A DNA stretch of 48,945 nucleotides from Fibrobacterota bacterium (GTDB taxonomy: Bacteria > Fibrobacterota > OXYB2-FULL-49-7 > JAEUSG01). The first letter of the stretch is position 1. Every line of letters begins with the position of its first letter. A program made the position numbers and the translations under genes. Positions 12,957 to 35,207 of the stretch are shown here, piece by piece. Below the pieces are notes generated by a model. It saw only the letters and a list, made by a program, of their open reading frames with translations. It made no database searches and was not told the origin of the DNA. Where the stretch lies: assembly GCA_016788315.1 (NCBI GenBank), contig JAEUSG010000203.1, positions 1 to 48,945 of the forward strand, given 5' to 3'.

Positions 12957-13079
12957 TGTCAACCCCTTATTTAAATTCAATTCCTAATATACAAAATAGG
13001 TATTGCGGACATTTCTAACCTTTATTACATTGTATTATCTACTGTAAACGGCAATTTTTAATTAGGAGGCAGGGAAAAG

Positions 13080-16765: not shown

Positions 16766-16786
16766 TTTTAGGAGCTATCGACAATA

Positions 16787-17224: not shown

Positions 17225-17243
17225 AATTAAAGGAGAGTTTTGA

Positions 17244-18908: not shown

Positions 18909-19020
18909 TCCTTCGCCCCTTTGACTAAGGATCAGGGGACGAGGAAATGATTGCCCTTTGACTAGGCTTCAGGTCACAAAGGAAGGATTCGCCCCCTGAG
19001 CGTAGTCGAAGGGGGCAAGA
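18909..19020. repeat. Cluster of three degenerate palindromic repeats
   Basis: Three related 25-29 bp units lie in the gap between an MCP gene and the next sensor gene. Unit 1 (18916-18942) and unit 2 (18954-18982) are direct: CCC(C)TTTGACTA, a short spacer, then TCAGG. Unit 3 (18991-19016) is inverted and best preserved: GCCCCCT pairs with AGGGGGC around GAGCGTAGTCGA, so its complement reads CCCTTCGACTACGCTCAGGG. Each can form a hairpin. Repeats with this core are known to be widespread intergenic elements. There is no coding potential in this 136-bp gap apart from the ribosome site of the next gene. Confidence 0.75.
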
Positions 19021-19044
19021 AGTTAACTTAAAAGGAGGTCTCTA

Positions 19045-19581: not shown

Positions 19582-19584
19582 AAA

Positions 19585-21219
19585 ATGAGTGTACGTAAAA
19601 AAATGCTGCTATTAAGCGCAATGGGTGTCGTTCTGACATTCATTGTGCTCGCTGTCTCGTTTCTCTTGAATAGAGGGATCTCTTCCCGTCTGACTGAGGT
19701 AATGAATGTAAATGATTTGCGGGATGACAATCTTGTTGAAGTCATTATGAGTGTATCCAACTCACAGGGAACCTTGCAGAAGATTCTACGTGAAAAAGAT
19801 GGCGATCTTTTAGAGCAATACATAGCAGAGTATGATTCACTGCTGATCTCTGCCGACAAATATATAGGCCTTGTTAACGGAGCGGCCTCATCAATTTTTG
19901 TTGAAGATCTGGACGATTTGAAAAATGTCAATAAATCACTGACGGAAAAGGCGCTTATTGGTGAACAGGCAATCGCACAGGAGCTCTTTGTAGAAAAATC
20001 TTCACCGCTTTTCACTAAAACCATAGTTGATATAAACGCATTCAGAGATGAGAGCGAGGCTGCTCAAAAAGCTGTAAGTGATAAAAGCATAGGCAGAATC
20101 AATTCTCTTTTCGTCATTTCTTTTCTGATTATGACCATTCTTTCAATCGCTGTTCTCTTTTTTGGCCGTTCGCTGTCAGCAAGTGTTTCGGTGCCGTTGA
20201 ACAGAACTACCGAATTGTTGAAGGATATCTCTGAAGGTAATGGAGATCTCACAAAAAGGATGGATGTAAGAAGCGAAGATGAGATAGGCAAATTAAGTAC
20301 CTACTTCAATGCCTTTATGGCTAAACTCCAGGGGATTGTAAAGGAGGTGTCGAACAACACATCTACATTGTCCACTGCAAGCGAAGAGATGTCAGCTGTT
20401 TCACAGCAGATTGGCGCTTCAGCAGAAGAGATGAGCGCTCAGTCACAGTCTGTTTCAGCTTCAACAGAACAGTCAAGTGCAAATATCAGAAGTATTTCTG
20501 CAGCAGCAGAACAGATGTCCGGTTCTGTAAATACTGTTGCCACGGCTATTGAAGAGATGAGTGCTTCGCTGAATGAAGTTTCGAAGAATTGTCAGAAGGA
20601 ATCATTGGTTGCTGCCAAGGCAGATGTTGAGGCAAAGAGTACTCAGGCCCATATGGAAAAGCTTGGTGTTGCGGCTAAGCAGATTGGCAAGGTTGTCGAA
20701 GTCATTAACGATATTGCCGATCAAACAAATCTTCTTGCCCTTAATGCAACAATTGAAGCTGCAAGCGCTGGTGAAGCCGGCAAGGGTTTTGCAGTAGTTG
20801 CTAATGAAGTAAAGGAACTTGCCCGTCAGACTTCCCAGGCGACAGATGAAATACGCAATCAGGTGAATAGTATGCAGGGCAGTACTGCAGAGGCAGTCAA
20901 AGCTATTGAGTCAATCACAAAGATAATCGAAGAGATAAATGTTATTTCGCAGACAATAGTCAGCGCTGTAGAAGAGCAGTCTGCCACAGTGCAGGAAATT
21001 GCACGCACTATGGGTGGTGCGAGCAGCGCAGCAAATGAGATAGCTAGAAATGTTGGTGAAAGCGCAAAAGGGATGCAGGAGATTTCTTCTAATATAACAG
21101 GAGTCAATCAGGCGGCTAAGGATACAGCTTCTGGTGTTTCACAAATTAGAAGCAGTGCGGATGATTTGGCAAAATTGTCAGCTGGATTGAAAAGGATTGT
21201 TGATCAGTTTAGAGTTTAG
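19585..21219 (+). CDS. Methyl-accepting chemotaxis protein (DQTN tip), partner of the PDC-like sensor
   Basis: 544 residues: TM1 (about 8-28), a helical periplasmic domain of about 145 residues, TM2 (about 174-195), HAMP with GNGDLTKRM, and an MCP signalling domain nearly identical to the one encoded at 17244-18908 (tip [20 protein letters not shown]). Helical bundle ectodomains in MCPs often read out ligand-loaded binding proteins, which suits the adjacent secreted sensor. The ATG follows the sensor stop by 3 bp with no separate strong ribosome site, so translational coupling is likely. The C-terminus (DQFRV) lacks a CheR-binding pentapeptide. Confidence 0.93.
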
Positions 21220-21243
21220 CCGAGGGGGGCAGTAGGAGACAAA

Positions 21244-22206
21244 ATGATGCGCTATGTTTTTTTTATTCTGATTTTATCTGTTGCTTCGTTTTCTGAAGAA
21301 ACAGATTCCTCAAAAATCAAAGAGGCCATGGAAATCGGCGGCCTTGTCACACTTGACATATATGGTCCCGTAAAAGAGATGGATCACCCCTCTTTCGAAA
21401 TAGGCAGCGTCTATCTTGGTGCTAATATGACCTTGTCTCCCGCTGTAACTGCTTCTGTAGTAATTGCCGCAGAAGGCAATATGGAGGCTTTGTGGATTGA
21501 TCAGGCAATAGGTGTTTTGGCACCTGAAGGATCTTCCTGGTCTCTTTCTGCCGGTCAGCAGACTTTAAAGCATGGTCTGCTTACTACCCGCCTTATTTGC
21601 GATCCCTTAATTTTAGACTCGGTTGAATTAATAAATCCAGCTCTTACAGCAGATTACACTAAGGGTGTATTTACATATGGAGCAGCATTTACTGCAATTC
21701 CAACACTCAGTCCTGATACAGCATTAATAAATAATGATAGGCTTGACTGGACAGCTGTGTTAGCTCTGGACTATAACAATGAAGAGTCCATTCTACAGGC
21801 TGCCAGGTTGTCATCTCTAATAACAGACCGGAAGCAGGATATTGATTTGGCAGTAACGGCAACGCTTAAAAGTTTTACGTTGGATCTAGAGGCGTATTCT
21901 GTGCTGAATTCTAATCGACCGGAATTAGTGTCGGGAAGTTTTGCCGGTCTTTCATGGCAGGCTACGGAAAAACTGGCAATTGCAGGCCGGTATGACATGC
22001 TTTCTCCAGATCGTTTTAAAGATGCTGACAATAAAGTCTGTTTCGGAGCTAAATTTGATATTCGTGACGGTATTTTTTGTGCAGTAGAATTTGAACGTAC
22101 ATGGTTCAATAGCGGTGGTAATGAAAATGAGATCAATTTGCAGTTGGGGCTTGAAAACACAATCAAGCTGCCCGGATTCCACAGAGAAACTTTGACAAAC
22201 AACTAA
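21244..22206 (+). CDS. Outer-membrane barrel-like protein inside the chemotaxis operon
   Basis: 320 residues with a signal peptide (hydrophobic to about residue 16, SFSEE). The mature part has porin-like alternation: FEIGSVYLGANMTLSPAVTA, WSLSAGQQTLKHGLLTTRL, FTYGAAFTAIP and late strands such as GAKFDIRDGIFCAVEFERTW. It resembles phosphate-selective or LbtU-like porins in style, but no family is certain. AGGAG lies 6 bases before the ATG at 21244. Its place, in tandem with MCP and cheB, is unusual for a chemotaxis operon. It may admit the ligands sensed by the secreted sensors. The sequence ends in ETLTNN, without a terminal aromatic residue. Confidence 0.6.
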   Translation: MMRYVFFILILSVASFSEETDSSKIKEAMEIGGLVTLDIYGPVKEMDHPSFEIGSVYLGANMTLSPAVTASVVIAAEGNMEALWIDQAIGVLAPEGSSWSLSAGQQTLKHGLLTTRLICDPLILDSVELINPALTADYTKGVFTYGAAFTAIPTLSPDTALINNDRLDWTAVLALDYNNEESILQAARLSSLITDRKQDIDLAVTATLKSFTLDLEAYSVLNSNRPELVSGSFAGLSWQATEKLAIAGRYDMLSPDRFKDADNKVCFGAKFDIRDGIFCAVEFERTWFNSGGNENEINLQLGLENTIKLPGFHRETLTNN

Positions 22207-22217
22207 ACGGGAAAAAC

Positions 22218-23330
22218 ATGGCTATACGCACTCTCATCGTTGACGATTCAGTATTATTCAGAAAGGTGCTCTCTGACGCCCTTGCTTCATTTACTAATGT
22301 GGAAGTGCTTGGAACCGCTCCTGGCGGTAAGCTTGCACTTAAAAAACTTGCACAGACTCCTGCCGACCTCGTTCTTCTCGATGTTCATATGGAGGAGATG
22401 GATGGCATTGAAACGCTTCGACAGATAAGAAAGGATTTTCCTGATACTAAAGTAGTAATGGTAAGTGGCATATCGACAAGAAATGCCGATTCAACCATTC
22501 AGGCCCTTGAAATAGGTGCTCTTGATTTCATTAGAAAGCCTGACGGGAAAGATTATGATGCAAATCTTGCAGAATTAAAAACAGATTTGCGCAGCGTCCT
22601 TAGGCTGATTGAGACAAAGCTCCTGGCTTCAAGCTCTCTGCGTCTTAAAAAAGAGACGCCAGCGTCAGCATCGCCCTCTATTTCACCTGTATCGGTTTCG
22701 CCGTCTCAACCCCAAAGAACTCCTTCCATAAGTGTTCCTCCTCCGGACTCATTTTCAGTCCTGGCGATTGGTGTTTCAACGGGAGGACCTGAGGCTTTGG
22801 CACGTGTTATTCCTCTTCTTCCGGCAAATCTTGGCGTTCCTGTGGTGCTGGTTCAGCATATGCCGCCGAACTTTACAAAATCGCTTGCTGACAGCCTCTC
22901 AAAAAAATCGAAACTGCCGGTTGTGGAGGTTCAGGAGGGAGACGAAATCATTCCTAACCGTGTTCATATTGCTCCGGGGGGGTTCCATTTTGTTGTAAAG
23001 GGTACTCCAACTGCCGCTAAAGTTTCTATAAATTCAGATCCGCCGGAAAACTCCTGCCGACCTGCAGTAGATGTGCTGTTTAGATCTGTTGCTGAAGTTT
23101 ATGGCGACAGAGGTGTATTGGCAGTAATTCTTACAGGTATGGGAAATGACGGAATGCGCGGTGTTTCAGTGTTAAAGAGAAAAAAATGTTTTTGCCTTTC
23201 GCAAACAGAGTCCAGTTGTGTAGTTTATGGTATGCCTAAAGCAGTTGATGATGCACGACTAACTGATGAGTCGGTGCCGCTCGATAAAATGGCTTTAAGA
23301 ATAGCGGAACTGATACAGAAAAGACGATAA
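22218..23330 (+). CDS. cheB: Chemotaxis response regulator and protein-glutamate methylesterase CheB
   Basis: 370 residues. The receiver (1-125) has D9/D10, phospho-acceptor D55 (LLDVHMEEMDG) and K107. A Pro/Ser-rich linker (about 145-175) leads to the methylesterase, with catalytic triad S187 (GVSTGGPEAL), H214 (VQHMPP) and D311 (MGNDGMRG). CheB removes methyl groups from, or deamidates, MCP glutamyl sites to reset receptor sensitivity and is activated by CheA phosphotransfer. The gene opens a cheB-cheR-cheY block with 6-bp or smaller gaps. Length and motifs are normal. Confidence 0.96.
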   Translation: MAIRTLIVDDSVLFRKVLSDALASFTNVEVLGTAPGGKLALKKLAQTPADLVLLDVHMEEMDGIETLRQIRKDFPDTKVVMVSGISTRNADSTIQALEIGALDFIRKPDGKDYDANLAELKTDLRSVLRLIETKLLASSSLRLKKETPASASPSISPVSVSPSQPQRTPSISVPPPDSFSVLAIGVSTGGPEALARVIPLLPANLGVPVVLVQHMPPNFTKSLADSLSKKSKLPVVEVQEGDEIIPNRVHIAPGGFHFVVKGTPTAAKVSINSDPPENSCRPAVDVLFRSVAEVYGDRGVLAVILTGMGNDGMRGVSVLKRKKCFCLSQTESSCVVYGMPKAVDDARLTDESVPLDKMALRIAELIQKRR

Positions 23331-23336
23331 TATATT

Positions 23337-24188
23337 ATGGCTTCAATATCTGCAAATGAATTTAAACTGCTGCGCGACTACATAGAGAAGAGTTGCGGTA
23401 TTTTAGTTGGAGATGAGAAGGCTTACTTAATAGAGAGTCGTCTATCAAGTCTTATGGCCCAAAACGGCTGCAATACATTTGCTGAATTTTATCAGAAGGC
23501 TGCATCCGATAGAACCGTTGGTCTTCGAGACAAAATAGTTGATGCCATGACCACAAATGAAACACTCTGGTTTCGCGATACACATCCATATAAAGTCCTT
23601 GATGAAGTTCTTTTACGCGAATTTGCAGATGAAATAGCAAAAGGTAAAAGACGGAAAATTAGAATATGGAGCGCCGCCTGCTCAACAGGTCAGGAGCCTT
23701 ATTCGATTTCTATGATCATTCAGGAATTTGCAAGAAAGTCATCAGTCCTCCCGCTGGAATATGTAGAGATTGTAGCAACAGATATTTCACCATCCGCCCT
23801 TTTTCTCGCAATGGCTGGCCGATACGATAAACTTTCTATGTCTCGCGGAATGACCGATGATTTTCGTGACCGATACTTCGATCAAACAGGAACTGTTTGG
23901 GCAGTAAAGGACAAAGTCAAAAAGATGGTCTCCTTCAAACGATTTAATCTGCAGGACTCTTTTGTGCCGCTTGGAAGTTTTGATTTAGTCTTTTGCAGAA
24001 ATGTGGCCATATATTTCAGTGAACAGTTTAAGAGGGAGCTCTTCCGCAAAATTGCACAGATGCTTCGGCCAACCGGAATCCTGTTTCTTGGGGCTTCTGA
24101 ATCCATGTCTAATTACAGCACTGAGTATCAGTTGATGACTCACGATAAAGCAATGTATTACAGAGTTAAGCAGGAGGGTAAGGTATGA
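23337..24188 (+). CDS. cheR: Chemotaxis protein methyltransferase CheR
   Basis: 283 residues. The N-terminal helical domain (1-75) has the CheR opening FKLLRDYIEKSCGI and MTTNETLWFRD. The SAM-dependent methyltransferase domain follows, with WSAACSTGQEPYSISM as the SAM-binding loop, VATDIS as the acidic ribose-contact strand, FDLVFCRNVAIYF, and the late RPTGILFLGASES. It methylates MCP glutamates using S-adenosylmethionine, opposing CheB. None of the local MCPs ends in an NWETF-like tether, so CheR presumably works without it. It overlaps cheY by 4 bp (ATGA). Confidence 0.96.
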   Translation: MASISANEFKLLRDYIEKSCGILVGDEKAYLIESRLSSLMAQNGCNTFAEFYQKAASDRTVGLRDKIVDAMTTNETLWFRDTHPYKVLDEVLLREFADEIAKGKRRKIRIWSAACSTGQEPYSISMIIQEFARKSSVLPLEYVEIVATDISPSALFLAMAGRYDKLSMSRGMTDDFRDRYFDQTGTVWAVKDKVKKMVSFKRFNLQDSFVPLGSFDLVFCRNVAIYFSEQFKRELFRKIAQMLRPTGILFLGASESMSNYSTEYQLMTHDKAMYYRVKQEGKV

Positions 24189-24550
24189 AAATACTTTCAG
24201 CAGACGACTCATCTATGATCAGACGAGTTATCAGGGGTGCCGTTGAAATGGTTGGTCACGAGCTAGTTGAAGCGCGTGATGGTAAAGAGGCACTTGAAGT
24301 ACTCGAGAAGCATCCTGACATCGGTCTGATTCTGCTTGACTGGAATATGCCAAATCTTGACGGATTATCTGTGCTCAAAGCTGTTAAAGCGGATGATCGA
24401 TATAAAGCAATTCCCGTAGTAATGGTTACAACAGAAGTTGAAAAAAGTAAAGTTGTTGAGGCTATAAAAGCCGGTGCAAAAAATTATGTTATGAAACCCT
24501 TTTCACAGTCCGATCTTGTTTCAAAGATTATGGAAACAATAAGCGGATAA
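24185..24550 (+). CDS. cheY: Chemotaxis response regulator CheY
   Basis: A 121-residue stand-alone receiver with all key residues: D7/D8, phospho-acceptor D52 (LLDWNMPNLDG), T82 or T83 (VVMVTTE) and K104 in MKPF. CheY carries the CheA signal to the output machine: flagellar switch, type IV pilus motor or another target. No output machine is encoded in this window. The start overlaps cheR by 4 bp, so translation is coupled. It is the only short free CheY here; the CheA receiver and the cysteine-cluster receiver may compete for phosphate. Confidence 0.95.
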   Translation: MKILSADDSSMIRRVIRGAVEMVGHELVEARDGKEALEVLEKHPDIGLILLDWNMPNLDGLSVLKAVKADDRYKAIPVVMVTTEVEKSKVVEAIKAGAKNYVMKPFSQSDLVSKIMETISG

Positions 24551-24571
24551 AAAAGAGGCAGGCGAATTACT

Positions 24572-25441
24572 ATGGCAACTATCAAAGATAAAATTCTGGA
24601 ACGTCTTGAAGGGATTGACGATCTGCCACCGGCTGGACCGCAGTTTCTTGAAACGCAGCGTCTTATCTGCGATGGAAAACATGATGCAGGTAAAGTCGCT
24701 TCTTACCTTGAAAAGGATTTAGCACTTTCTGCTAAAGTTTTACGAATAGCTAATTCAGTAGTTTATGGTGGCCGTTATGGTGAAATTGGCAGTCTGCCGC
24801 AGGCCATTGCCCGCCTTGGAATGGACGAAGTATGCCGGCTTACCATGGCGGTAAAAGCTATGGCTATCTTTGAAAAATCTTCAGGTGTAGTTGACCCAAT
24901 GGAATTCTGGCACCACTCTATCGCTGTGGCTATGGTTACAAGGAATATTGTAGCTGTTTCTAAACATGTCAATTCCGATCCGGGTCAGACCTATATTGCC
25001 GGACTTATGCATGACATTGGCATATTTATAATGGATAGATATTTTCCAGATGTTTACAGAAAGGTGAGAGAGTCTGCAGCTGCTAAGGGTGAACTGGTTC
25101 ACATTGCCGAAAAGCGGCTTCTTGGAATTGAGCATGGTGAAATTGGAGCTGTAATTCTGGAAAAGTGGCGTTTCCCCGAAGTAATAGTGACTGCCGTAAA
25201 ATGTCACAATAGTCCTGACGAAGCAACAGACGCTGCACTGCAATTGACACAAATCCTTCATATAGCTGATTTTGCCTGTTCAGCAATTGGTGCAGGAGAG
25301 CCGGGGGATGCTGTTCCGCAGACATTTAGCCTGGGGGCTTGGCATGATTTGAATATCGATGCTGACTCGCTCTCAAAGATTGTGTCTGAGACAGAAGAGG
25401 AAATAGCAAAAGCCAAGATCATGATGAACATTAACAAGTAA
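24572..25441 (+). CDS. HDOD-domain protein
   Basis: 289 residues forming an HDOD domain (an HD-related fold usually without catalytic residues): DDLPPAGPQFLE, VASYLEKDLALSAKVLRIANS, IGSLPQAIARLGMDEVCRLT, then LMHDIGIFIM and LGIEHGEIGAVILEKWRFPEVIV. HDOD proteins occur as signalling adaptors, often with receivers or c-di-GMP systems. Here it lies between cheY and the CheX fusion in the same direction with 21- and 12-bp gaps, suggesting a role in output or adaptation. The HD pair (LMHD) is present, but the full HD-GYP motif is not, so enzyme activity is unlikely. The ATG at 24572 fits the family start. Confidence 0.85.
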   Translation: MATIKDKILERLEGIDDLPPAGPQFLETQRLICDGKHDAGKVASYLEKDLALSAKVLRIANSVVYGGRYGEIGSLPQAIARLGMDEVCRLTMAVKAMAIFEKSSGVVDPMEFWHHSIAVAMVTRNIVAVSKHVNSDPGQTYIAGLMHDIGIFIMDRYFPDVYRKVRESAAAKGELVHIAEKRLLGIEHGEIGAVILEKWRFPEVIVTAVKCHNSPDEATDAALQLTQILHIADFACSAIGAGEPGDAVPQTFSLGAWHDLNIDADSLSKIVSETEEEIAKAKIMMNINK

Positions 25442-25453
25442 ATCTAACATAAC

Positions 25454-26458
25454 ATGCTAGTACTCCTTGTAAATACAAACAGGATAGTTGAGGGGCTCCT
25501 GCGAAATACACTGCAGGCCTCAGCACATACATTAAGAACTATAGCCATAGGTGATATTGAAACTCTGCTGATGCCGAAAATGGAGGACGTAGAGGTTAAC
25601 GATGAATCATCCTCAAACGCTAATGAACAAGATACAATTAATGAGATAGATGCGTTGTTGTCAAGTGGAGATAAAGGTAAGAGCAAAGGGCAAAAAAAGA
25701 TTATCCGGAAGTTGTCGCCGCCAATTATTTCCGCCGACTTTATTCTGTTCTATCCGCCGGACGATACAGAGAAAGCAAAGGCGGCTAATGTGCTTCTAAG
25801 AAGGGCAATTGCTTTCAGGGATGTTCCGCTGCTTGTATTGACTGAAATGTCAAAACTGATTACTGCAAGGGAACTTATTACGCTTGGCGCCGATGAAATT
25901 CAGAATCTGCCGGTTGCTCCAGAGGAGTTACTCATCAGAATTGAACGAATGTCAAGGCCAGTCGGCAGCCGTCTGCCGGTAATAACTAAGCTTATAAATC
26001 CATATATCAGCGCTGTGCTGGATATGATGACAACAATGGCCGGTATGCATGTTGAACGTAAGGATCTCTTTCTAAAGAAAAATTACCGTCTATTTGGCGA
26101 CATTTCAGGAGTTATGAATTTTTCAGGACGTATTGAGGGCTCAGTTACTGTTTCATTTACAGAAGATCTTGCTAAAGAGGTGATTGCTAAAATCATGGGT
26201 ATTACTCCTGCAGATATTTCAGATGACGATTTAAGAGATGGCGTAGGTGAAATAATCAATATTATTTCCGGCAATGCAAAAGCTTCACTGGCGGAGACTG
26301 AATTTTCTCATGAAATAGCGCTTCCGGCTGTAGTTCGAGGTGCCGGACACCATATCCGACATCCTGATGGTGCTCCTTGCATGGTTGTACTATTTGAAGC
26401 GGCAGGTAGGCCTTTTGCAGTTCTTGTCAGTATGTCAGTAAAAGGAAAAACAGCATGA
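25454..26458 (+). CDS. cheX: Degenerate receiver fused to CheX-type CheY phosphatase
   Basis: 334 residues. The N-terminal ~165 residues have receiver-like order (opening LVLLVNTNRIVEGLLRNTL, FILFYPPDD, VPLLVLTEM, ending LITLGADEIQNLPVAPEEL) but lack the acidic pair, a clear phospho-acceptor Asp and the conserved Lys (LP replaces KP), and carry an acidic, Ser/Asn-rich insert at about 42-80. The C-terminal part (about 180-330) is CheX, with phosphatase motif E266-x2-N269 in GEIINIISGNAK. CheX removes phosphate from CheY-P. The pseudoreceiver may be a docking or regulatory domain. There is no evident Shine-Dalgarno site before the ATG at 25454. A second, short cheX follows. Confidence 0.8.
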   Translation: MLVLLVNTNRIVEGLLRNTLQASAHTLRTIAIGDIETLLMPKMEDVEVNDESSSNANEQDTINEIDALLSSGDKGKSKGQKKIIRKLSPPIISADFILFYPPDDTEKAKAANVLLRRAIAFRDVPLLVLTEMSKLITARELITLGADEIQNLPVAPEELLIRIERMSRPVGSRLPVITKLINPYISAVLDMMTTMAGMHVERKDLFLKKNYRLFGDISGVMNFSGRIEGSVTVSFTEDLAKEVIAKIMGITPADISDDDLRDGVGEIINIISGNAKASLAETEFSHEIALPAVVRGAGHHIRHPDGAPCMVVLFEAAGRPFAVLVSMSVKGKTA

Positions 26459-26461
26459 GTT

Positions 26462-26509
26462 TTAGAACCCCCCTTGCCCCCCTTTTTTCAGAGCAAAAAA
26501 GGGGGGATG
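26462..26509. repeat. Palindromic dispersed repeat, copy B
   Basis: An inverted copy of the repeat at 5938-5986: TTTAGAACCCCCCTTG, then a perfect 12-bp stem (26477-26488 with 26495-26506) closing on a CAGAGC loop, then ATG. Only small length changes in the homopolymer runs distinguish the two copies. It sits between the two cheX genes, 3 bp after the first stop, where a strong hairpin might reduce read-through inside the operon. Confidence 0.8.
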
Positions 26510-26569
26510 TTTACTTTGAAAAAAAAGCGAGTGATAAGGGGTGGGTTTTCTTAAAGGAAAGTGTATAAG

Positions 26570-27001
26570 ATGAACGAAACACTCTTAGCGTCAACGCTAA
26601 ATACATTCCAGACGATGCTCATGATTGAACTGACCCCTGTTACTTCTGAGCCATATCCTCCTATTGATTGTGAGTTCGCTGGCATGATAGGCTTTTCCGG
26701 AGATATTTCCGGAAACATTGCCATCTGTATGTCGCGCGCAACTGCAATGGAAGCTGCACTTGCTTTTGTGGGTGAACAGGTAACTGAAGATTCTGAACTT
26801 TCCGATTGCGTAGGTGAGCTTGTAAATATGATTGCAGGAAATGCAAAGTCCAGCATGCATGATATGAATGTCTCTCTTTCAATACCGGAAGTCATAATAG
26901 GCAAAGATATCAGGATAGATTTCTGCAGATTTAAAACGAAAACAGACCTCTATTTTGACTCATCGGCCGGTCCAATTCATTTAATCTTTACACAAAGATA
27001 A
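26570..27001 (+). CDS. cheX: CheX-type CheY phosphatase, stand-alone
   Basis: 143 residues from the ATG at 26570, with AAAGGAAAG about 9 bases upstream; a GTG at 26561 is in frame but less likely. It is a single CheX domain with phosphatase motif E83-x2-N86 (VGELVNMIAGNAK) and the GDISGNIAICM strand shared with the CheX part of the preceding gene. It dephosphorylates CheY-P by family knowledge. The two cheX genes flank a palindromic repeat and are probably old duplicates, diverged in sequence. No cheC or cheD is seen nearby. Confidence 0.85.
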   Translation: MNETLLASTLNTFQTMLMIELTPVTSEPYPPIDCEFAGMIGFSGDISGNIAICMSRATAMEAALAFVGEQVTEDSELSDCVGELVNMIAGNAKSSMHDMNVSLSIPEVIIGKDIRIDFCRFKTKTDLYFDSSAGPIHLIFTQR

Positions 27002-27022: not shown

Positions 27023-28966
27023 ATGATTCTTTATTATTCGCATATATTTTACCATATAGGACCGCAGTTAGTAGCTATCTTTATTTTGTCTCTCTCTTTA
27101 GCGTTAATGATGCGAAAGAGAGATATTCCTGCTGTAAATTCCTATTTGTTAATATTATTGGCTCAGATTCTTTGGCAGTTCGGCTATGCTGCCGAAATAC
27201 TGTCGCCCAATTTAGAAGTGAAACTCTTTTGGGACGATTTTCAGTTTCTGGCGCTATTAATGTCAGTATATTTTATCCGCAGTTTTTCGTTGGTTTACAG
27301 CAAAACAGGTAAGTATAAGCGTGATATCTTCTGGTGGCTTCATCTTTTTGTCATATTCTCTTTCACAATAATTGTATCTCTGGGTCAAAATTCTGATTTG
27401 ATCAGGTTCTCATATAGAGTGGGAGAAGGATCGTATAATGGCCGGCTGATTTATGAATTTGGTCTGGTATCCTGGTGCATATTTTTATATGCATATCTGC
27501 AGCTTGCCGCAGTAGTTTATAGAATTATTAAAAAACCGTCAGAAAAAGTTAAATCCAAACGTGTTTTAACAATTCTGCTGATAGTCAGTGTGGCAATACC
27601 GTACGTAGGTTTTATACTGCGGATATCTGGATTGTTCAATACTTACGAAAGAGATATTACACCATTTACGTTTTCGATTTCGAGTGCTGTTGCTGTAGTG
27701 GCAGTCTTAAGGTTTAAGTTGTTTGATTTTGAATCTGCGGCAAGGGATAGGCTTGTGGAGACCCTACGCATTCCGCTTCTGGTGTTTGATAATAACTGGT
27801 GCTTAGTCGATGCAAATCAGGCTGCAAAAACCCTATGCTCCCCGGACAGCAGCAATGGTAAATTAACATTGGATTCCATACTTCACTGTTCATCAAAAAC
27901 AGCGGAAGATATCCGGTCAGGATTAAGAAGCGGAATAATGGAAACAATTTCTGATAGCTGTCAACATAGAGTTTTTGAATTTACAGTTGAAAATATCATA
28001 GAGGAAAATTATCAAGCTGGATGGATGCTTCTGCTTTATGAAGTGACTGGACGTGTCAATGCAGAAAGAGAGATATTGAAATCGAGAGAAGAATTGGAAC
28101 TTCGTGTTTCAGAAAGAACGGGAGAATTGCAGCAGGCTCTGATAGAACGGCAGAGAGCTGAAGAGGAGGCCCGGTTAAGAGATTTGCAATTAATGCATGC
28201 TGATAAGATGGCTTCACTCGGTATTTTAGTTGCCGGAGTGGCTCATGAAATAAATAATCCGAATAATTTGATACTCTTTAATACAGATGTTCTGGCACGT
28301 ATCATTGATGAAAGCTCTCCTGTCATTACTGAAATTATAGAAAATAGATCGGACTACAAGGTTGGCGAACTTAATTTCAGCGAGATAAGGAGTGAAGTTC
28401 CCAGATTGTTAAAAAGTATTAAAGAAGGTTCGTATCGCATCAAGGATATAGTGAACGGTTTGAAGAATTTTTCCAAAAGAGATGACGAAGAGCCGGTATT
28501 CCACTTTTCACTCAACAATGCACTTGATTCCGCGCTTATGCTGACGGGTAACTTAATTGAAAGGTCAACTAACTCCTTTCTTGTTCAAAAAGCCTCTTTG
28601 CTGCCGAGAGTTTTCGGTAAACAGAAACAGATTGAGCAGGTAATAATAAACTTAATAACAAACGCCTGCCAGGCTCTGGCATCAAAGGACAATTCAATAG
28701 TAATAACCACTGTCTATGATGAAAATGAGAAAACAGTAAAGCTTATTGTAAAAGACAGCGGCTGCGGTATATCAGACGAAAATATTAAGCGGGTGTTTGA
28801 CCCCTTTTTTACTACGAAAAGATCGGCAGGAGGAACCGGGTTGGGGCTATCCATCTCCTTTAATATTGTAAAGGCGCATCATGGCGAGCTTAATATATTT
28901 TCTCCTGCAGGTGCTGGAACTGAAGTCACTCTTGTTTTGCCGGTTAACGGGGAGAATTTGATATGA
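27023..28966 (+). CDS. Membrane sensor histidine kinase (7TM type)
   Basis: 647 residues. About seven membrane helices fill residues 1-232, matching the N-terminal 7TM sensor of HisKA_7TM kinases. A PAS-like region (about 240-345) opens with PLLVFDNNWCLVDANQAA. A coiled coil (350-390) leads to HisKA with H408 (ILVAGVAHEINNPNN) and an HATPase with QVIINLITNACQAL, DSGCGIS, FFTTK and GTGLGLS boxes. This is a complete NtrB-like kinase without a receiver. Its stop overlaps the NtrC-type gene by 4 bp, so the two form a pair. It follows the second cheX by 21 bp. The signal is unknown; a membrane-dissolved or membrane-state signal suits the 7TM module. Confidence 0.9.
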   Translation: MILYYSHIFYHIGPQLVAIFILSLSLALMMRKRDIPAVNSYLLILLAQILWQFGYAAEILSPNLEVKLFWDDFQFLALLMSVYFIRSFSLVYSKTGKYKRDIFWWLHLFVIFSFTIIVSLGQNSDLIRFSYRVGEGSYNGRLIYEFGLVSWCIFLYAYLQLAAVVYRIIKKPSEKVKSKRVLTILLIVSVAIPYVGFILRISGLFNTYERDITPFTFSISSAVAVVAVLRFKLFDFESAARDRLVETLRIPLLVFDNNWCLVDANQAAKTLCSPDSSNGKLTLDSILHCSSKTAEDIRSGLRSGIMETISDSCQHRVFEFTVENIIEENYQAGWMLLLYEVTGRVNAEREILKSREELELRVSERTGELQQALIERQRAEEEARLRDLQLMHADKMASLGILVAGVAHEINNPNNLILFNTDVLARIIDESSPVITEIIENRSDYKVGELNFSEIRSEVPRLLKSIKEGSYRIKDIVNGLKNFSKRDDEEPVFHFSLNNALDSALMLTGNLIERSTNSFLVQKASLLPRVFGKQKQIEQVIINLITNACQALASKDNSIVITTVYDENEKTVKLIVKDSGCGISDENIKRVFDPFFTTKRSAGGTGLGLSISFNIVKAHHGELNIFSPAGAGTEVTLVLPVNGENLI

Positions 28967-30363
28967 ATAGAGTCATTCTTATAGTCGATGATGAGACAGG
29001 TTTTCTCCATTCAGCGGCACTCTCTCTTAAGTTGGCTGGATACAGCTGCGTGGAAACATTGTCTGATCCATCAGAGGTTCTGCCCCGACTTGACAGAGGA
29101 GGGGTTGATCTGCTTTTTCTGGATATAATCATGCCGAACGTGTCTGGCATGCAACTGCTTACAGAAACACAGCAAAAACATCCGGATGTCACAGTCGTTA
29201 TGATCACAGCGCTTAATGATGCTAAGACCGCATTGTCGTGCATGAGGCTTGGCGCCTTTGATTATTTAGTCAAGCCTTTTGAAGAAAATGAACTCTTAAA
29301 TGTTGTGAGAAAAGTTTTTTCAAACCGTGATGCACAGGAACTTTCAAGTTCGCTGAGGCGCTCAGTTCTCGAGAGCAGGCTTCATACAATGGAGTATTTC
29401 TCTGCAATAAACACAAATCATCCTGTTTTACTTTCTGCGTTTCGATATGCTGAAGCTTTGGCTCCGACAGATTTCCCAATATTGGTGACAGGAGAAACAG
29501 GAACCGGTAAAGAACTGATGGCAAGAGCGATTCATAAAGCTTCCGGCCGAAAGGGAGAGTTTGTTTGTGTAAATGCGGGCGGAATTGATGACACGGTGCT
29601 GAATGATACACTGTTCGGACATGTAAAGGGAGCTTTTACAGGTGCGGATCGTGACAGATCGGGATTGATAGAGTCTGCCGCAAGAGGAACGCTCTTTCTT
29701 GATGAGATTGGTGACTTAAAGCCGGAATCTCAGATAAAACTTCTAAGGTTGTTGCAGGAAGGTGTTTATTATCCAATCGGTTCCGACAGAGCGAAAAGAT
29801 CAACAGCCAGAGTTATTGCGGCAACTCACCGTAATTTAAAGCAGCTTATTGACAAAGGGCATTTCAGACTGGATCTTTTTTACCGTCTTCAGGCACACGA
29901 ACTGCATCTTCCTCCTCTTCGTGAGCGGCCTTCAGATATTCCGTTGCTGGTTCACCGTTTTGCAAGCGATGCGGCTGAACGCATAAAAAAAGAGACTCCA
30001 AATATACCGCAGGATATTTTTGTTCTGCTGGCTAACCATTCGTGGCCGGGAAATGTGCGTGAATTGCAGGGATTAATTTATGACGCAGTAAGCAGAAGCA
30101 GCGGAAAAACGATATCGTTGGATGTCATAAAGGATAAGATTTGCGCAGATACTCAGATGGTTGGAAAAGAACAGGTTGCGATTACTGCAGACAATGAAAC
30201 ATACAATATTCGGCCAGCGCTATTTCCGGGACCTTTACCAACGGTAGAAGAGGCTGAAATGCAGTTGATTCAGGAAGCACTCAGAAGAACAGATGGAAAC
30301 AAGACCCTTGCCGCAGAAATGCTTGGACTTACCCGCCAGACTCTTATAAGAAAATTAAAATAG
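28963..30363 (+). CDS. NtrC-family sigma-54-dependent response regulator
   Basis: 466 residues. Receiver: D9/D10, D54 (LFLDIIMPNVSG), K104. AAA+ domain: Walker A GETGTGKE (177-184), GAFTGA loop (223-228) that contacts sigma-54, Walker B TLFLDEIGD, and the R-finger segment YRLQ...PLRERPSDIPLL. A Fis-type helix-turn-helix fills 436-466 (GNKTLAAEMLGLTRQTLIRKL). It is thus a full enhancer-binding protein that opens sigma-54 promoters when phosphorylated by the kinase encoded just upstream. A -24/-12 promoter lies about 90 bp downstream, with palindromic sites between, so the next operon is the probable target. Confidence 0.95.
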   Translation: MNRVILIVDDETGFLHSAALSLKLAGYSCVETLSDPSEVLPRLDRGGVDLLFLDIIMPNVSGMQLLTETQQKHPDVTVVMITALNDAKTALSCMRLGAFDYLVKPFEENELLNVVRKVFSNRDAQELSSSLRRSVLESRLHTMEYFSAINTNHPVLLSAFRYAEALAPTDFPILVTGETGTGKELMARAIHKASGRKGEFVCVNAGGIDDTVLNDTLFGHVKGAFTGADRDRSGLIESAARGTLFLDEIGDLKPESQIKLLRLLQEGVYYPIGSDRAKRSTARVIAATHRNLKQLIDKGHFRLDLFYRLQAHELHLPPLRERPSDIPLLVHRFASDAAERIKKETPNIPQDIFVLLANHSWPGNVRELQGLIYDAVSRSSGKTISLDVIKDKICADTQMVGKEQVAITADNETYNIRPALFPGPLPTVEEAEMQLIQEALRRTDGNKTLAAEMLGLTRQTLIRKLK

Positions 30364-30385
30364 TTACAGTGTAACAATTTGTTAC
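30363..30385. promoter_or_regulatory. Overlapping GTTAC/GTAAC palindromes, putative enhancer-binding site
   Basis: GTTAC (30363-30367), GTAAC (30371-30375) and GTTAC (30381-30385) form two overlapping palindromes with 3- and 5-base spacers. They begin at the stop codon of the NtrC-type gene and lie 65-88 bp upstream of the -24 box, the normal range for an enhancer-type binding site. Binding by that regulator is inferred from position and symmetry. A weak hairpin could also form, but there is no terminal T-run. Confidence 0.5.
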
Positions 30386-30450
30386 GCTACGAAAAATACC
30401 AAAGAATCCATATTTTCCTAAATATCAACTACTTATGTCGCTTGTCATAA

Positions 30451-30467
30451 AGGCATAAGGCTTGCAT
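30451..30467 (+). promoter_or_regulatory. Putative sigma-54 (-24/-12) promoter
   Basis: AGGCAT (30451-30456), 5 bases, then TTGCAT (30462-30467): the invariant GG and GC are spaced exactly as in the consensus TGGCAC-N5-TTGCA, with two mismatches in the -24 box. Transcription should begin near 30479, giving a leader of about 65 bases before the ATG at 30543. It directly follows a gene for an activator with the sigma-54 contact loop. Confidence 0.6.
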
Positions 30468-30499
30468 GTGTCAATAATAGCCCTTTTGTTGTGACACAT
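30466..30499. promoter_or_regulatory. 8-bp inverted repeat downstream of the -12 box
   Basis: ATGTGTCA (30466-30473) and TGACACAT (30492-30499) are perfect inverted arms separated by 18 bases, covering the predicted start of transcription. This could be an operator for a second regulator, or a leader hairpin. No candidate regulator is known. Confidence 0.4.
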
Positions 30500-30542
30500 T
30501 TTGTTGCACTTGCATTTAAACTATAAAATGAGGAGATTTGTT

Positions 30543-31202
30543 ATGAAGTTTGGGATTGTCGTTGCCATGTTGGCCGTTTCTTCGATTGTTTTCATCTTGG
30601 CATGCTCTGATTCTGATAATCCAGTTGCACCTCCTGCTGCAACTGTTCCTGATTCTGCTGCAATTATAAGTATGACTTTTGATACGGCAACTGTAGGCAG
30701 TGCAAAACAGGCTAATATTTCTGTAAAAGTGAGTGGCCCTGTTTCTCAGGGAAATTACTACACAGGCTATAAGCCGGCAACTGATTTTGCAGTTTGGATT
30801 GAAAACAGCGCTGGTAAATATATCAATACAGTAAAAGTTTCAAAAGGCAGTGCTAAGATTGGTGATTATGCTGCTCATGAAGCACATCTTCCAATTTGGC
30901 AGAAAAGCAGCGGACTTGACTTAAATAAAGTTACAGTACAGCTGGATACAGCAGGAATACCGGTTGTTCTTGATGGGTTAACTGGTGCAAGTTTGAAATG
31001 CCGCACAACAGCTGGCTATGATACGACCATGACACTTGTTTGGTCTATGAGAGATTCTGGAAAAGTTGCTGTCCCTTCCGGCTCCTATTTCCTCTGTGTT
31101 GAAACAGCAAATATTATCAAAAATAAAACTGGTTCAACAGGTGCTGATAGTGTTGTTATGACCATTAACAACAACTACAGGAAAAAGAGCATTGTTTTCT
31201 AA
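30543..31202 (+). CDS. Lipoprotein, DUF2271-like
   Basis: 219 residues from the ATG at 30543, which has GAGGAG 8 bases upstream. Lipobox ILAC places the lipidated Cys at about residue 21, followed by SDSDNP. The body fits DUF2271 (a flagellar-hook-like beta sandwich found in periplasmic redox gene clusters): FAVWIENSAGKYINTVKVSK, LPIWQKSSGLDLNKV, DGLTGASL and LVWSMRDSGKVAVPSGSYF with VETAN. DUF2271 genes commonly neighbour FMN-binding, PepSY or ApbE genes, and an FMN-binding gene lies four genes on. This is the first gene of the putative sigma-54 operon. The family match is by motif reading only. Confidence 0.6.
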   Translation: MKFGIVVAMLAVSSIVFILACSDSDNPVAPPAATVPDSAAIISMTFDTATVGSAKQANISVKVSGPVSQGNYYTGYKPATDFAVWIENSAGKYINTVKVSKGSAKIGDYAAHEAHLPIWQKSSGLDLNKVTVQLDTAGIPVVLDGLTGASLKCRTTAGYDTTMTLVWSMRDSGKVAVPSGSYFLCVETANIIKNKTGSTGADSVVMTINNNYRKKSIVF

Positions 31203-31338
31203 GTTAGTAATAACAGTGTCAATTGTTGCCATGCTATTCGGGCTTTTACAATGTGAAAGTTCGACTGGCGGTAGCGTAAACAGAGTTGTTCCAGTTGACA
31301 GTTCAGCAACTGACGGCGAAACAGGAGCTTCACCATAA
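31192..31338 (+). CDS. Small 48-residue lipoprotein with TTG start
   Basis: A short gene read from TTG at 31192 to TAA at 31336-31338. It gives MFSKLVITVSIVAMLFGLLQ then Cys21, a classical lipoprotein signal (basic residue, hydrophobic run, lipobox LLQC), and a 27-residue Ser/Thr/Gly-rich tail ending in ETGASP. AGGA lies 9 bases upstream. The start overlaps the preceding gene by 11 bp and the stop overlaps the next ATG (TAATG), so both ends suggest translational coupling. An ATG at 31231 would cut the signal in half. Its role may be as a small partner or anchor in the redox cassette. No family is recognised. Confidence 0.65.
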   Translation: MFSKLVITVSIVAMLFGLLQCESSTGGSVNRVVPVDSSATDGETGASP

Positions 31339-31700
31339 TGTCGCATGAATTACATCATCATGAAAAACACCAAGATAAGCATCACCATGATAAGCATCAT
31401 CAAGAGCATCTGACATCTTCCGAAGAAGCAGAAAAAAAACGTAAGCTCTATATTAAAAACAAGATAAGGTTGGCTGTTGACATTCTGATGCTGATTAGTT
31501 TTGCTGTTCTTGCTTTTACTGCGTATGTAAAAATGCCATTTAATTACGATCGTTTTTTTACCTATGAGCAGGAGGTCTTTGATTTTAAGCTTATGTCGCT
31601 TCTGCACGATTATTCCGGAATTGTCTTTCTTGGCGCAACTGTTGCACATCTCATATTGTCCAGAAGAAGGTTGCAGTATCTCATAAAGCACGGTAAGTAG
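31338..31700 (+). CDS. Histidine-rich DUF4405-like membrane protein
   Basis: 120 residues. Eleven of the first 24 residues are His (H3 to H24), a strong candidate metal-binding tail on the cytoplasmic side if the N-terminus is inside. A membrane helix spans about 44-64 and a second about 91-108. The second carries LLHDYSGIVFLGATVAHLIL with H90 and H104, fourteen residues apart as in heme-b-binding helices of DUF4405/cytochrome-b561-like proteins. The match is to the HD-W/Y-SG-x-H pattern and is moderate; only one four-helix half would be present. It could pass electrons to the FMN protein encoded downstream. AGGAG lies about 10 bases before the ATG. Confidence 0.6.
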   Translation: MSHELHHHEKHQDKHHHDKHHQEHLTSSEEAEKKRKLYIKNKIRLAVDILMLISFAVLAFTAYVKMPFNYDRFFTYEQEVFDFKLMSLLHDYSGIVFLGATVAHLILSRRRLQYLIKHGK

Positions 31701-31715
31701 AAAGGGTTTAAAAGC

Positions 31716-32894
31716 ATGAAGAAAATATTAGCCTTGACATTATTTCTGCTTTTGCTTTCAGGAAATATTTTTTCTGAAAGCTCTGTAAATGTCGGTGGGC
31801 ATATGGCATTGTCAATGTTCGATCTTGCTGCCGGCACATCAACATACATGAAGGACAAAGACAGCTCGGCAGTTGATTATGCTGGTTTCAAATTTCTTCG
31901 TTTCATGCTGTTCATAAAGGCCTCTTTATCTGAAAAGGTATTAGTTGATATTCAGCCGATTTTTGAAACAAGAACTGATGGAACAACCGGAGCGACACAG
32001 AAGTTTCCTGGAACTTATAAGGACTCTGCCATGTCCGTAATCATTGGTAAACAGAGAGGACTAAGTCCTAAGGTTGATTTTCAGGGATTTAACAGAGCAA
32101 CGGCTAAAATGGTTCTTGGCGGCGGTACCGAACTTTCGTTTGGTTATGTGCATCCCCGGTTTACCTGGGATTACGGCAATGAACTTTTCTGGGAAGATGA
32201 ACTTAATGCAAATCCATTTTCGCTGGATCTGTATTTAGGAAATCTTGATGCCGTCGGATTTGAAGTGGTTCACTATTTTGAATTGGCTGACGGCAATTTC
32301 ACCATTCCGTTTTATGGGTATGTGCTTAATGGTGCAGGAGAACCTGGCGGCGGGTCTGTAATTGAAAACAACAACTCACCTTTTGGCATGGTGCATATTG
32401 AGCCTGAAATCGGCTCTTTAAAATTACATTTGTCTGTTGGCGGGGGTGTTTGGGACGAAAAGAACTCGAAGCTTGCTGCCCGTGCTGCTGTAGGTCTATC
32501 GTTTTCAGATGGTCCATTTTCTGCAAGAGCTGAAGGTGCAGTAGGTTATTGGGACAGCCTTTTATATGATTCGAAAGACGCTGCAATGCCCTTTGGCGGT
32601 TATGCAAAATGTTTCTATAAGGTGTCTAAGAATCTGAGGCTTTCATTGGCTGGAAGTTTTGACTACCATAATTTCATTATGCCGTTTCAGCCCCATGCAG
32701 GCAAGGAACAGTGGATTGCCGTTTCGCCGGGCCTGCAGTTGACAACATCACCTGGTTCCAGGGTTGTCTTTCAGCTTGATCTTGCACAAGGTATTTACGA
32801 ACCGTATAAAAATAACGGAGTTGAAACTTACGAACGATACGATAGAACCATAAGTTATGTTCATCCGACAATCGGCTGGCGTTTAACATTTTAA
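31716..32894 (+). CDS. Porin-like outer-membrane protein
   Basis: 392 residues with a signal peptide (residues 1-20, GNIFSES). The mature part is barrel-like: repeated alternating strands (SVNVGGHMALSMFDL, AKMVLGGGTELSFGYVHP, FSARAEGAVGYW, YAKCFYKVSKNLRLSLAGSF) and a final TIGWRLTF whose terminal Phe fits BAM recognition. It resembles porins of the phosphate-selective O/P class in style. AAAGGG lies about 8 bases before the ATG. Set between a DUF4405-like and an FMN-binding gene, it may be the outer-membrane channel of the redox cassette. Confidence 0.7.
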   Translation: MKKILALTLFLLLLSGNIFSESSVNVGGHMALSMFDLAAGTSTYMKDKDSSAVDYAGFKFLRFMLFIKASLSEKVLVDIQPIFETRTDGTTGATQKFPGTYKDSAMSVIIGKQRGLSPKVDFQGFNRATAKMVLGGGTELSFGYVHPRFTWDYGNELFWEDELNANPFSLDLYLGNLDAVGFEVVHYFELADGNFTIPFYGYVLNGAGEPGGGSVIENNNSPFGMVHIEPEIGSLKLHLSVGGGVWDEKNSKLAARAAVGLSFSDGPFSARAEGAVGYWDSLLYDSKDAAMPFGGYAKCFYKVSKNLRLSLAGSFDYHNFIMPFQPHAGKEQWIAVSPGLQLTTSPGSRVVFQLDLAQGIYEPYKNNGVETYERYDRTISYVHPTIGWRLTF

Positions 32895-32903
32895 GAGGTG
32901 AAT

Positions 32904-33467
32904 ATGGTAAAAAGAGTTATTATTGCTGCATCACTCCTGCTTTTTCTCGCTCCGCTTGCATTTTCAATAGAGCTTTTAAGCGAAGAACAGGCTGTGAAAA
33001 GAATGTTCCTGACTGCTGACAATGTAAAGCAGGAAAAAAAGACTCTCACAGCACCGCAGATAGAAGAGCTTAAAAAGAAGCTGGCTGGTAAACTTTATGA
33101 AATAAAAAAGCCGGATGGTCAGTCTGAAAATGAATTCACCTTTCACATCGGCTCAAAGGGCGGTGCTGTTACCGGTGTTGCAGTAATACTTTCTGAAATT
33201 GACAGGTGGGGACCGCTTAAGTTTATTATTGTAGTAGATCCGGCAACCGGCAAGGTTGAAAATATGGCTATGCTTGAGTATATCGATCAGCGTGCTAGAA
33301 ATCTTTCAAACCGCAACTATCTTAAAAATTTCTTTGGCAAAGGGCTTGCCGATCCAATACAGATTGGTAAAGATGTAGACGGTTTGTCCGGTGCCACAGT
33401 TTCCTCAGAAGTGTTGGCGCATATGGTTCGCAAAGCAATTGCTCTCGTTGTAGGTCATGCAAAATAA
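32904..33467 (+). CDS. Periplasmic FMN-binding domain protein
   Basis: 187 residues from the ATG at 32904, with GAGG 5 bases upstream; an in-frame GTG at 32898 is less likely. Signal peptide to about residue 21, then the FMN_bind fold (NqrC/RnfG C-terminal type) with the flavinylation motif DVDGLSGAT at 157-165, in which T165 is the expected site of phosphoester-bound FMN. ApbE, which attaches FMN in such proteins, is not encoded in the window. The protein should be a periplasmic one-electron carrier. It lies between the porin and a fourth MCP, which ties flavin redox state to signalling. Confidence 0.88.
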   Translation: MVKRVIIAASLLLFLAPLAFSIELLSEEQAVKRMFLTADNVKQEKKTLTAPQIEELKKKLAGKLYEIKKPDGQSENEFTFHIGSKGGAVTGVAVILSEIDRWGPLKFIIVVDPATGKVENMAMLEYIDQRARNLSNRNYLKNFFGKGLADPIQIGKDVDGLSGATVSSEVLAHMVRKAIALVVGHAK

Positions 33468-33491
33468 GAGTCACACTCTGGAGGCAGAACG

Positions 33492-35207
33492 ATGAGAAAG
33501 ATCACATTCGGGGATCTTTTGAAAAGGCCGTTTAAGACCATTCGTAACAGATTAATGGTTGTTGGTGCGCTTTTTATCATTGGCTTTGCCATTTTTCTTG
33601 TCAAGCAGTACTGGTTTGTTGAAAAGGTAAGGGTTGGCTCTCCTCTCTATGACAGGATCACAGCATACAGGTTTATTCTTCAGGACATTTCATCGATATC
33701 GAGCGATATCAATGGATTGAATAATGCCTTTGCAACTCTCTCAAACGAAACAGATATGGGCCGTGTTGAAGATGGCATTGCAGAACTTGATAATTACAGA
33801 ATGAATGTAATAAATATCATTGCTCAGTTAAAAGAGGCTGCAAAAAAAGAGGATGGCGATTTCCAGAAAACTGTTTCTGAATTGGAAACTGCATGGAATG
33901 ATTATGCGAATGGCGGCGATGAAAAAATAGTTATGGCAATGGTTGATAACCGTGCTTCAGATGCTCAAGGGTATGTTCAGGGCGAGTTTGCTGAACTCTT
34001 TAAGAATCTTCAGTTGAAGTCAGACGCTACCAAGGGTTCGCTCAATAAAATGGTTGATATGCTTGAAAATGAAGCATATTCTCTTGTAAAGACAGGCCGG
34101 TATGCTGATGTTGTTGGGTCCATAATCCTGCTGGCCGTTCTTCTCGCTGTAATCGCGCTTATAGCCCGTTCTATACTTAAGCCGCTTGCAGGGCTTAATC
34201 TGGCCCTTAAGGATATTGCAGAGGGTAACGGCGACTTGACAAAGAGGCTCCATATTGCATCAGATGATGAAGTAGCGTCGGCAGGTCATTCCTTTGATAA
34301 GCTGCTTGATAAATTAAAAGTGATGATTGTCCAGATTCAGGAAAATGCCTCCGGTTTAAATAACGCTGCGGATGGATTGTCTTCACGATCAGATAAAATT
34401 GCATCTGCAACAGATGGTATAAAATCGGCAACCCATCAGGTTGCTTCATCTACGGAACAGGCGGTAAATAAAATTGGTTCAGTTTCCAATGGCGCCGAAC
34501 AGATGTCCGGTTCGGTTGGTGAAATTGTCCAGTCGATTCACAGTATTGAAGGAGACCTCAAACGCATAGAGGGCCACTGTTCGGAAGAGCTTTCAATTGC
34601 CAAAGAGGCAGGTAAAAGTGCAGCTACCGCTGAGGCGATGATGGATAATCTTAGAAAGTTAAGCGGAGAGATTGGTAAAATAACTACTACTATAAATGGC
34701 ATAGCTGGCCGGACCAGGCTTCTTGCGTTAAACGCAACCATAGAAGCGGCAAGTGCCGGTGAGGCAGGAAAAGGTTTTGCAGTTGTAGCGGGAGAGGTAA
34801 AAGAACTTTCCGGGCAGACAACAGCAGCTACAGCCAGTATTGAAAGCCAAGTTTTGCAGATACAAAAGATTTCATCACAGTCAGAGGCGGCAGTTAAAGC
34901 GATAGCAGATACTCTGATCCGTGTTGAACAGCTTTCACAGCAGGTTTACAATTCGGTTGAAGAAGTTACCAACAGGTTGTCGAATATTTCAGAGGCGGCA
35001 GGTGGTGCAGGCAGTGCTGCGCATACTGTTGCCGGAAGTGTTCAAGCAGTTACAGATGAGTTGTCTGGTGTTTCCGGGAAAATGCATGAGGTTGACGGAA
35101 GTATGACTCATGCTGCTGAAGGTATTGCAGATATACAGCTTCATGCCCGTCAAATGAAGGACTTAGCCGGCGAGTTGAATGCTATCGCCGGCAGATTCAA
35201 GATTTAA
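33492..35207 (+). CDS. Methyl-accepting chemotaxis protein (GRTR tip) of the redox cassette
   Basis: 571 residues: TM1 (about 21-37), a helical periplasmic domain (about 45-203), TM2 (about 207-227), HAMP with GNGDLTKRL, and the MCP signalling domain with tip GRTR (406-409) and [16 protein letters not shown]. It diverges from the two operon MCPs but shares the GRTR tip with the hemerythrin MCP. GGAGG lies 8 bases before the ATG at 33492. It ends in GRFKI, without a CheR tether. Its 24-bp gap from the FMN-binding gene suggests one transcript. It probably reports the state of the cassette (flavin redox state or substrate) to CheA. Confidence 0.92.

Follow-up and report, generated by a model that had tools for sequence, protein, structure and literature searches.

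As far as we know, the outer-membrane electron conduits described to date depend on multiheme cytochromes. In the flavin-based extracellular electron transfer (EET) of the Listeria type, which involves EetA, EetB, FmnB, and PplA, the lipoprotein PplA is flavinylated, and Listeria has neither an outer membrane nor a porin. Clusters of extracytosolic proteins flavinylated by ApbE have also been described and include the PepSY/DUF2271, DUF4405, NapH, and MsrQ types (PMC8238504, PMC11334425). The FAD exporter of Listeria has EetB as its substrate-binding subunit (PMC9973259), and a report claiming the first Listeria-type system outside Gram-positive bacteria names no outer-membrane flavin component (PMC11323493). 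We analyzed a 48,945-nucleotide stretch of DNA from a Fibrobacterota bacterium (contig JAEUSG010000203.1), here called the window, and describe in it a cassette of six genes encoding a DUF2271-like lipoprotein, a 48-residue lipoprotein, a DUF4405-like membrane protein, a porin, an FMN_bind protein, and a methyl-accepting chemotaxis protein (MCP). On balance, we think that this operon encodes an ApbE-dependent, multi-flavinylated envelope electron-transfer module with its own chemoreceptor.

The cassette resembles the ApbE-flavinylated clusters in its DUF2271 and FMN_bind candidate substrates, its DUF4405-like putative cytochrome, and the presence of ApbE in the genome. In contrast to those clusters, it adds two candidate substrates without a known flavin domain (the 48-residue lipoprotein and the porin) and a chemoreceptor. 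In the portions of the main text of PMC8238504 and PMC11334425 that were searched, the terms porin, chemotaxis, and chemoreceptor do not occur, and text searches of open-licence papers turned up neither an account of a flavinylated porin nor one that pairs ApbE with a chemoreceptor in the present sense. The Mtr and Pcc porin-cytochrome conduits also combine a porin, a redox lipoprotein, and a periplasmic carrier, but they are similar in logic only. No CxxCH heme motif is present in any cassette translation, and flavins would replace the multiheme cytochromes. Steering by electron transfer has a precedent in the congregation, or energy taxis, of Shewanella, where cells gather at electron acceptors only if they have both electron-transfer genes (mtr, for MtrCAB) and specific MCPs such as the Cache MCP SO_2240 (PMC5789149). 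However, the sensors of those MCPs are of the Cache or PAS type and their locus numbers are far from mtr, whereas the cassette MCP has a four-helix-bundle (4HB) sensor and is encoded last in the same run of genes.

The first-pass annotation of the window had identified one flavinylation motif, DVDGLSGAT in the FMN_bind protein. This motif is present, but the count was too low, as D-G-x-[ST]-G-A-[ST] occurs in four cassette proteins: the DUF2271-like lipoprotein (LDGLTGAS), the 48-residue lipoprotein (ATDGETGASP, directly before the stop codon), the porin (RTDGTTGATQ), and the FMN_bind protein. Among all six-frame open reading frames (ORFs) of at least 40 residues in the window, even the relaxed pattern D-x-x-[ST]-G-A-[ST] was found only at these four sites. 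Based on the amino acid frequencies of the window, the strict motif would be expected by chance ~6e-4 times in the cassette and 1.7e-5 times in the 48-residue protein. Pattern searches of the 5.55-Mb genome yielded seven strict sites among the matches listed, with four of the seven in the cassette. Of the three sites outside it, one is in an NqrC/RnfG-like protein from an Nqr/Rnf operon, one is in a secreted protein, and one is in a long open reading frame that resembles a cytosolic glutamate synthase. ApbE needs just seven residues and labels terminal tags best; the last T/S of its motif is the FMN site, a T-to-A change abolishes the reaction, and a D-to-A change has a minor effect (PMC12052999). 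ApbE is encoded in the same genome as the window (G000:C308; E value of 2.6e-70) and was found in all six genomes checked, including those of the relatives described below. Flavinylation of the cassette proteins would be consistent with these motifs.

The gene order with a linked MCP recurs in Fibrobacterota. A scan with a porin profile over 84,980 species returned five loci. Locus L019, from an uncultured Fibrobacteres bacterium (metagenome-assembled genome [MAG] Loclat_bin-05108), shows the full order of a DUF2271-like protein, an 83-residue lipoprotein, DUF4405, a porin with the motif DGSSGAS, FMN_bind, and MCP. It continues with a second MCP and an ApbE, which is the single ApbE match of that genome. 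The order is partial in L020, a truncated 3.9-kb contig with genes for a DUF2271-like protein, porin, FMN_bind, and MCP. These two loci rule out a cassette unique to one genome. A variant without an MCP was found in L022 and L023, where a small membrane protein and a porin (EVATGAT) are followed by ApbE, FMN_bind, and a Rieske-like protein, so that ApbE lies within the cluster there as it does in L019. The exported Rieske-like protein (L022:12779-13240 and its L023 counterpart) has no Pfam match and reads CTH...CPGD or CPQD, with Asp, as judged by eye, at the position expected for the second His of the cluster.

Among 168 Fibrobacterota genomes, the porin family occurs in 5, and the cassette FMN_bind subfamily occurs in the same 5. 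The MCP sensor domain is present in exactly the three cassette genomes, with one copy each, and the DUF4405-like protein is present in two of these three. The module is patchy in the phylum because the five porin genomes are spread over four of its families, a distribution that would fit transfer of the module as a unit.

All six cassette ORFs are present on the + strand in the tight order first proposed. Neighboring genes overlap at the first two junctions and are never more than 24 bp apart, and they may form a single transcript. No terminator-like site was seen between the FMN_bind and MCP genes, where one was looked for, so the MCP does not appear to be cut off from the cassette. The FMN_bind protein (32904..33467; motif residue Thr165), predicted to be a periplasmic flavoprotein, scored 31.3 bits against PF04205, above the Pfam gathering cutoff of 22 bits, and is 55% identical to its cassette homologues. 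The MCP (33492..35207) also passed its cutoffs (MCPsignal, 95; HAMP, 44.9). The other two family names in the first-pass annotation did not fully hold for the window proteins. The first protein (30543..31202; most likely starting at the ATG at 30543), a lipoprotein with the lipobox ILAC, scored 26.4 bits against PF10029, just under the cutoff of 27.3 bits, and is therefore called DUF2271-like only. Its homologues in L019 and L020 are also under the cutoff (21.6 and 16.2 bits). DUF2271 has been shown to be flavinylated by ApbE and carries [S/T]GA[S/T] (PMC8238504), a signature also present in the window protein. The third protein (31338..31700), with two transmembrane helices, scored 24.1 bits against PF14358 (cutoff, 26.7 bits), while its syntenic homologue in L019 is above the cutoff at 31.3 bits. 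The two proteins are 41% identical, and both His residues on the second transmembrane helix (His90 and His104) are conserved. DUF4405 proteins bind heme b (PMC11334425), and the window protein is a putative b-type cytochrome.

The porin (31716..32894) matches no Pfam or NCBIfam family and has no sequence relatives in the PDB. Its AlphaFold2 (AF2) model, based on a shallow alignment (pLDDT of 71.6), is a 16-strand-type porin barrel for which Foldseek returned PorB, OmpT, and OmpF, with PorB and OmpT being the most similar. In the model, the motif DGTTGAT (residues 88 to 94) lies in a long low-confidence loop (residues 86 to 119) between the strands at residues 75 to 85 and 120 to 134. This loop is probably extracellular, since strands alternate from a periplasmic N terminus, and flavinylation would need to precede barrel insertion. 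All six aligned porin relatives carry [ST]GA[ST], and the complete D-G-x-[ST]-G-A-[ST] is found only in the porins of the three MCP cassettes. The family also occurs in another phylum, that of locus L021, in 10 of 45 genomes. Most of the neighborhoods retrieved there include FMN_bind and usually ApbE, and several include NusG_II (EetA) and PF07456 (EetB), the latter fused to a CbiQ-type domain in L121. The EetA/EetB pair of the Listeria-type system is thus present beside the porin relatives in L121, L126, and others, in contrast to the window cassette and L019, which lack it. The association of this porin with FMN_bind is a recurrent partnership inside flavin-based systems.

The loci L121, L123, L126, L127, and L128 are EetA/EetB-type flavin-export clusters of putative diderms in which the porin family sits beside FMN_bind, mostly together with ApbE and a small multi-transmembrane protein. 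These porin clusters are candidates for the outer-membrane component that flavin-based EET has so far lacked. DUF3570 flavinylated proteins (L083, L095, and L103) are also barrel-like, with ~400 residues and [S/T]GA[S/T] in the N-terminal part, but they have different operon partners and no detectable homology to the window porin. Membership of the porin in DUF3570 (PF12094) was ruled out by the absence of a Pfam match, an hhalign probability of 1.8%, and a BLASTP E value of 0.27. A DUF3570 protein in the L019 genome (L103:618-1856) has three ApbE-type motifs, DAVTGAS, DGRSGAS, and DGTTGAT, in one N-terminal stretch.

The 48-residue lipoprotein (31192..31338) consists of a signal peptide, a lipidation Cys, a linker of ~20 residues, and the terminal tag DGETGASP. 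Its syntenic counterpart in L019 has 83 residues and ends in STDGTTGASEE, and the two proteins have little in common beyond signal peptide, Cys, linker, and tag. The DUF2271 protein of L020 ends in STDGNTSATAAAH, as though a lipoprotein tail had been fused to it. Among natural ApbE substrates, we know of none as small as the window lipoprotein would be. C-terminal flavin tags are not common in the phylum. The exact motif with one residue before the stop codon gave 8 DNA matches in 168 genomes, which is about background, as reversed-pattern controls gave equal or higher numbers. By codon reading, only 4 of the 8 matches encode S/T at both positions, 2 of them in the genome of the window. In that genome (C329), a secreted 206-residue strict-motif protein (L064:3989-4606) ends in NKPDGTTGATK, apparently a second natural C-terminal flavin tag. 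It looks flavodoxin-like by eye, without a passing match to any Pfam family, and its gene is directly downstream of a probable beta-barrel gene (L064:4713-5684). On another contig (C261; L049:1491-2042 and 2039-2773), a multiheme cytochrome with c7/MtrC-like Pfam matches ends in CHGKMDSQTGATVRR, a possible flavin tag, and its gene overlaps an upstream gene resembling an outer-membrane barrel, forming a porin-cytochrome-like pair.

We additionally examined the MCP, which the first-pass annotation had taken to report the redox state of the chain to CheA. The protein has a periplasmic four-helix bundle, HAMP, and MCPsignal, as in 4HB chemoreceptors, and its sensor is unmatched by the Pfam 4HB family. 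The AF2 model of the sensor (pLDDT of 84.2) is a four-helix bundle resembling MCP2201 and Vc1313 in Foldseek, with TM scores of ~0.7 to 0.9. Its closest matches are receptors for amino acids and organic acids (D-amino acids and citrate/malate). There was no support for a heme, PAS, or flavin domain. The redox-reporting role is only one possibility, as the sensor appears to be a plain ligand-binding bundle with no visible redox cofactor motif. Judging from the modeled fold, recognition of a small ligand or of a partner protein is more likely than sensing through a bound redox cofactor, and sensing of an electron acceptor or other ligand is as plausible as redox-state sensing. The suggestion that the receptor could feed CheA fits the gene neighborhood. 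CheA is encoded in the adjacent chemotaxis locus in the window, and a CheA with Hpt, dimerization, kinase, and CheW domains is encoded upstream of the cassette in L019.

The cassette had been proposed as a flavin/heme envelope system, and the four motifs and the relatives with their own ApbE support this. The DUF4405-like membrane protein, probably a heme b-containing dimer, would pass electrons from the inner membrane to covalent FMN on the FMN_bind protein. From there, electrons would move to the lipoproteins, where flavin may be carried in the DUF2271 domain or at the tip of the 48-residue lipid-anchored tether, which could act as a swinging flavin arm. The porin, probably with an FMN of its own in the loop, would give access across the outer membrane. 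The order of transfer would run from membrane cytochrome b through FMN_bind, the tethered lipoprotein flavin, and the porin/DUF2271 flavin to the acceptor. The terminal MCP would sense the acceptor or the working state of the module and signal via the neighboring CheA. Genes for motility and electron transfer would share one transcript, and the cell may navigate with the very system through which it moves electrons. More tentatively, the cassette might represent a flavin-only outer-membrane electron conduit in diderms, in which a loop-flavinylated porin is fed by a domain-less lipid-anchored flavin tether and a chemoreceptor of the same operon reads the state of the conduit.

Several observations weigh against a multi-flavinylated module with its own receptor. 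The ApbE of the window's genome is unlinked to the cassette and would also serve the Nqr/Rnf operon, and the cassette encodes no dedicated electron donor or terminal reductase. The DUF2271 protein of L020 has TSAS/TSAT in place of TGA[ST], and no DUF4405-like gene was found in the L020 genome, which is 83% complete. Across the wider porin family, the motif Asp is replaced (A/S/N/E). Five porins of the L021 phylum read TGATP with A, S, or N at this position, and two EetB-linked porins (L127 and L128) read SGGATP, indicating that the loop might have a structural role. The tail lipoprotein is known from few examples (two to three), and the MCP has a four-helix bundle of a generic kind as its sensor. 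All of the genomes appear to be MAGs; that of the window consists of 850 contigs and is 95.5% complete with 5.6% contamination.

It is possible, though we are doubtful, that the cassette instead serves substrate-specific periplasmic respiration or uptake, in which an ordinary porin admits a soluble acceptor or releases flavin shuttles, the flavoproteins reduce the acceptor in the periplasm, and the MCP binds the same small molecule. The resemblance of the porin model to general substrate porins would suit this, as would the likeness of the sensor to ligand-binding receptors, the two porins without a flavinylation motif in L127 and L128, and, by analogy, the dedicated chemoreceptors of catabolic operons, which bind the substrate directly. 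However, the porins of all three MCP cassettes carry the complete motif, the cassette has no reductase subunit, and the extra flavin carriers, one without an enzyme domain, suggest multistep transfer rather than one reductase. It is rather unlikely that just FMN_bind and DUF2271 are flavinylated and that the porin-loop and lipoprotein-tail motifs are structural or coincidental. Although TGATP is kept in Asp-less porin relatives, including the L021 copy, which has no flanking flavin genes, and the tail lipoprotein is known from two examples only, the low chance expectation in the 48-residue protein and the same tail in an L019 lipoprotein sharing little else argue against coincidence, as do the seven-residue requirement of ApbE and the minor effect of the D-to-A change (PMC12052999). 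Reductive assimilation of iron or another metal, in which a ferric reductase chain would work with a porin that takes up the metal and an MCP that mediates metal taxis, is improbable. In its favor, links to iron reduction and assimilation have been described for a subset of flavinylation clusters (PMC8238504), the ferrosome protein FezC is a relative of DUF4405 (PMC11334425), and the window's DUF4405-like protein has a His-rich N-terminal tail. However, this tail is not conserved in L019, and neither the cassette nor L019 showed a metal transporter, TonB receptor, VIT1, or Fur-type regulator.

Directly upstream of the cassette, the kinase/NtrC pair of the first-pass annotation was confirmed on the + strand. 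A 7TM sensor histidine kinase (27023..28966; Pfam HisKA_7TM, 3.9e-30; HATPase_c, 6.5e-25), a probable regulator of the cassette, is followed by an NtrC-type sigma-54 activator (28963..30363) with REC, Sigma54_activat, and Fis helix-turn-helix domains (Pfam, 4.3e-57) and GAFTGA in its translation. Control by sigma-54, as had been proposed, has its activator, and the promoter is only a candidate. This -24/-12 site, AGGCATAAGGCTTGCA (30451..30466, + strand), lies in the 180-bp intergenic gap before the cassette and matches 9 of 12 positions with a GG-N10-GC core. At the frequency with which sites of this quality turn up in the window, about one per 5 kb on each strand, ~0.04 would be expected in the gap. 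No counterpart was found in the syntenic L019, which has an AraC-type regulator, ruling out sigma-54 control as a conserved feature. Further upstream, directly before the kinase, is a complete chemotaxis locus (10479..27001, + strand; Pfam assignments) encoding a PilJ-MCP-hemerythrin protein, CheA-REC, CheW, MCPs, CheB, CheR, CheY, HDOD, and two CheX proteins. The MCP that opens this locus (10479-12569) has a PilJ-type N terminus and a C-terminal hemerythrin domain. It has the signaling tip IAGRTRLL in common with the cassette MCP, and two other MCPs of the locus have IADQTNLL. The GC and GC3 (third codon position) contents of the cassette resemble those of the neighboring che genes, which ruled out obviously foreign DNA.

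For the passage of flavin-borne electrons across the outer membrane, a direct candidate is offered by a porin family that has [ST]GA[ST] in a loop and recurs in linkage with FMN_bind and ApbE. With a linked, cassette-specific chemoreceptor, steering toward electron acceptors, a long-standing question, becomes testable in one operon.

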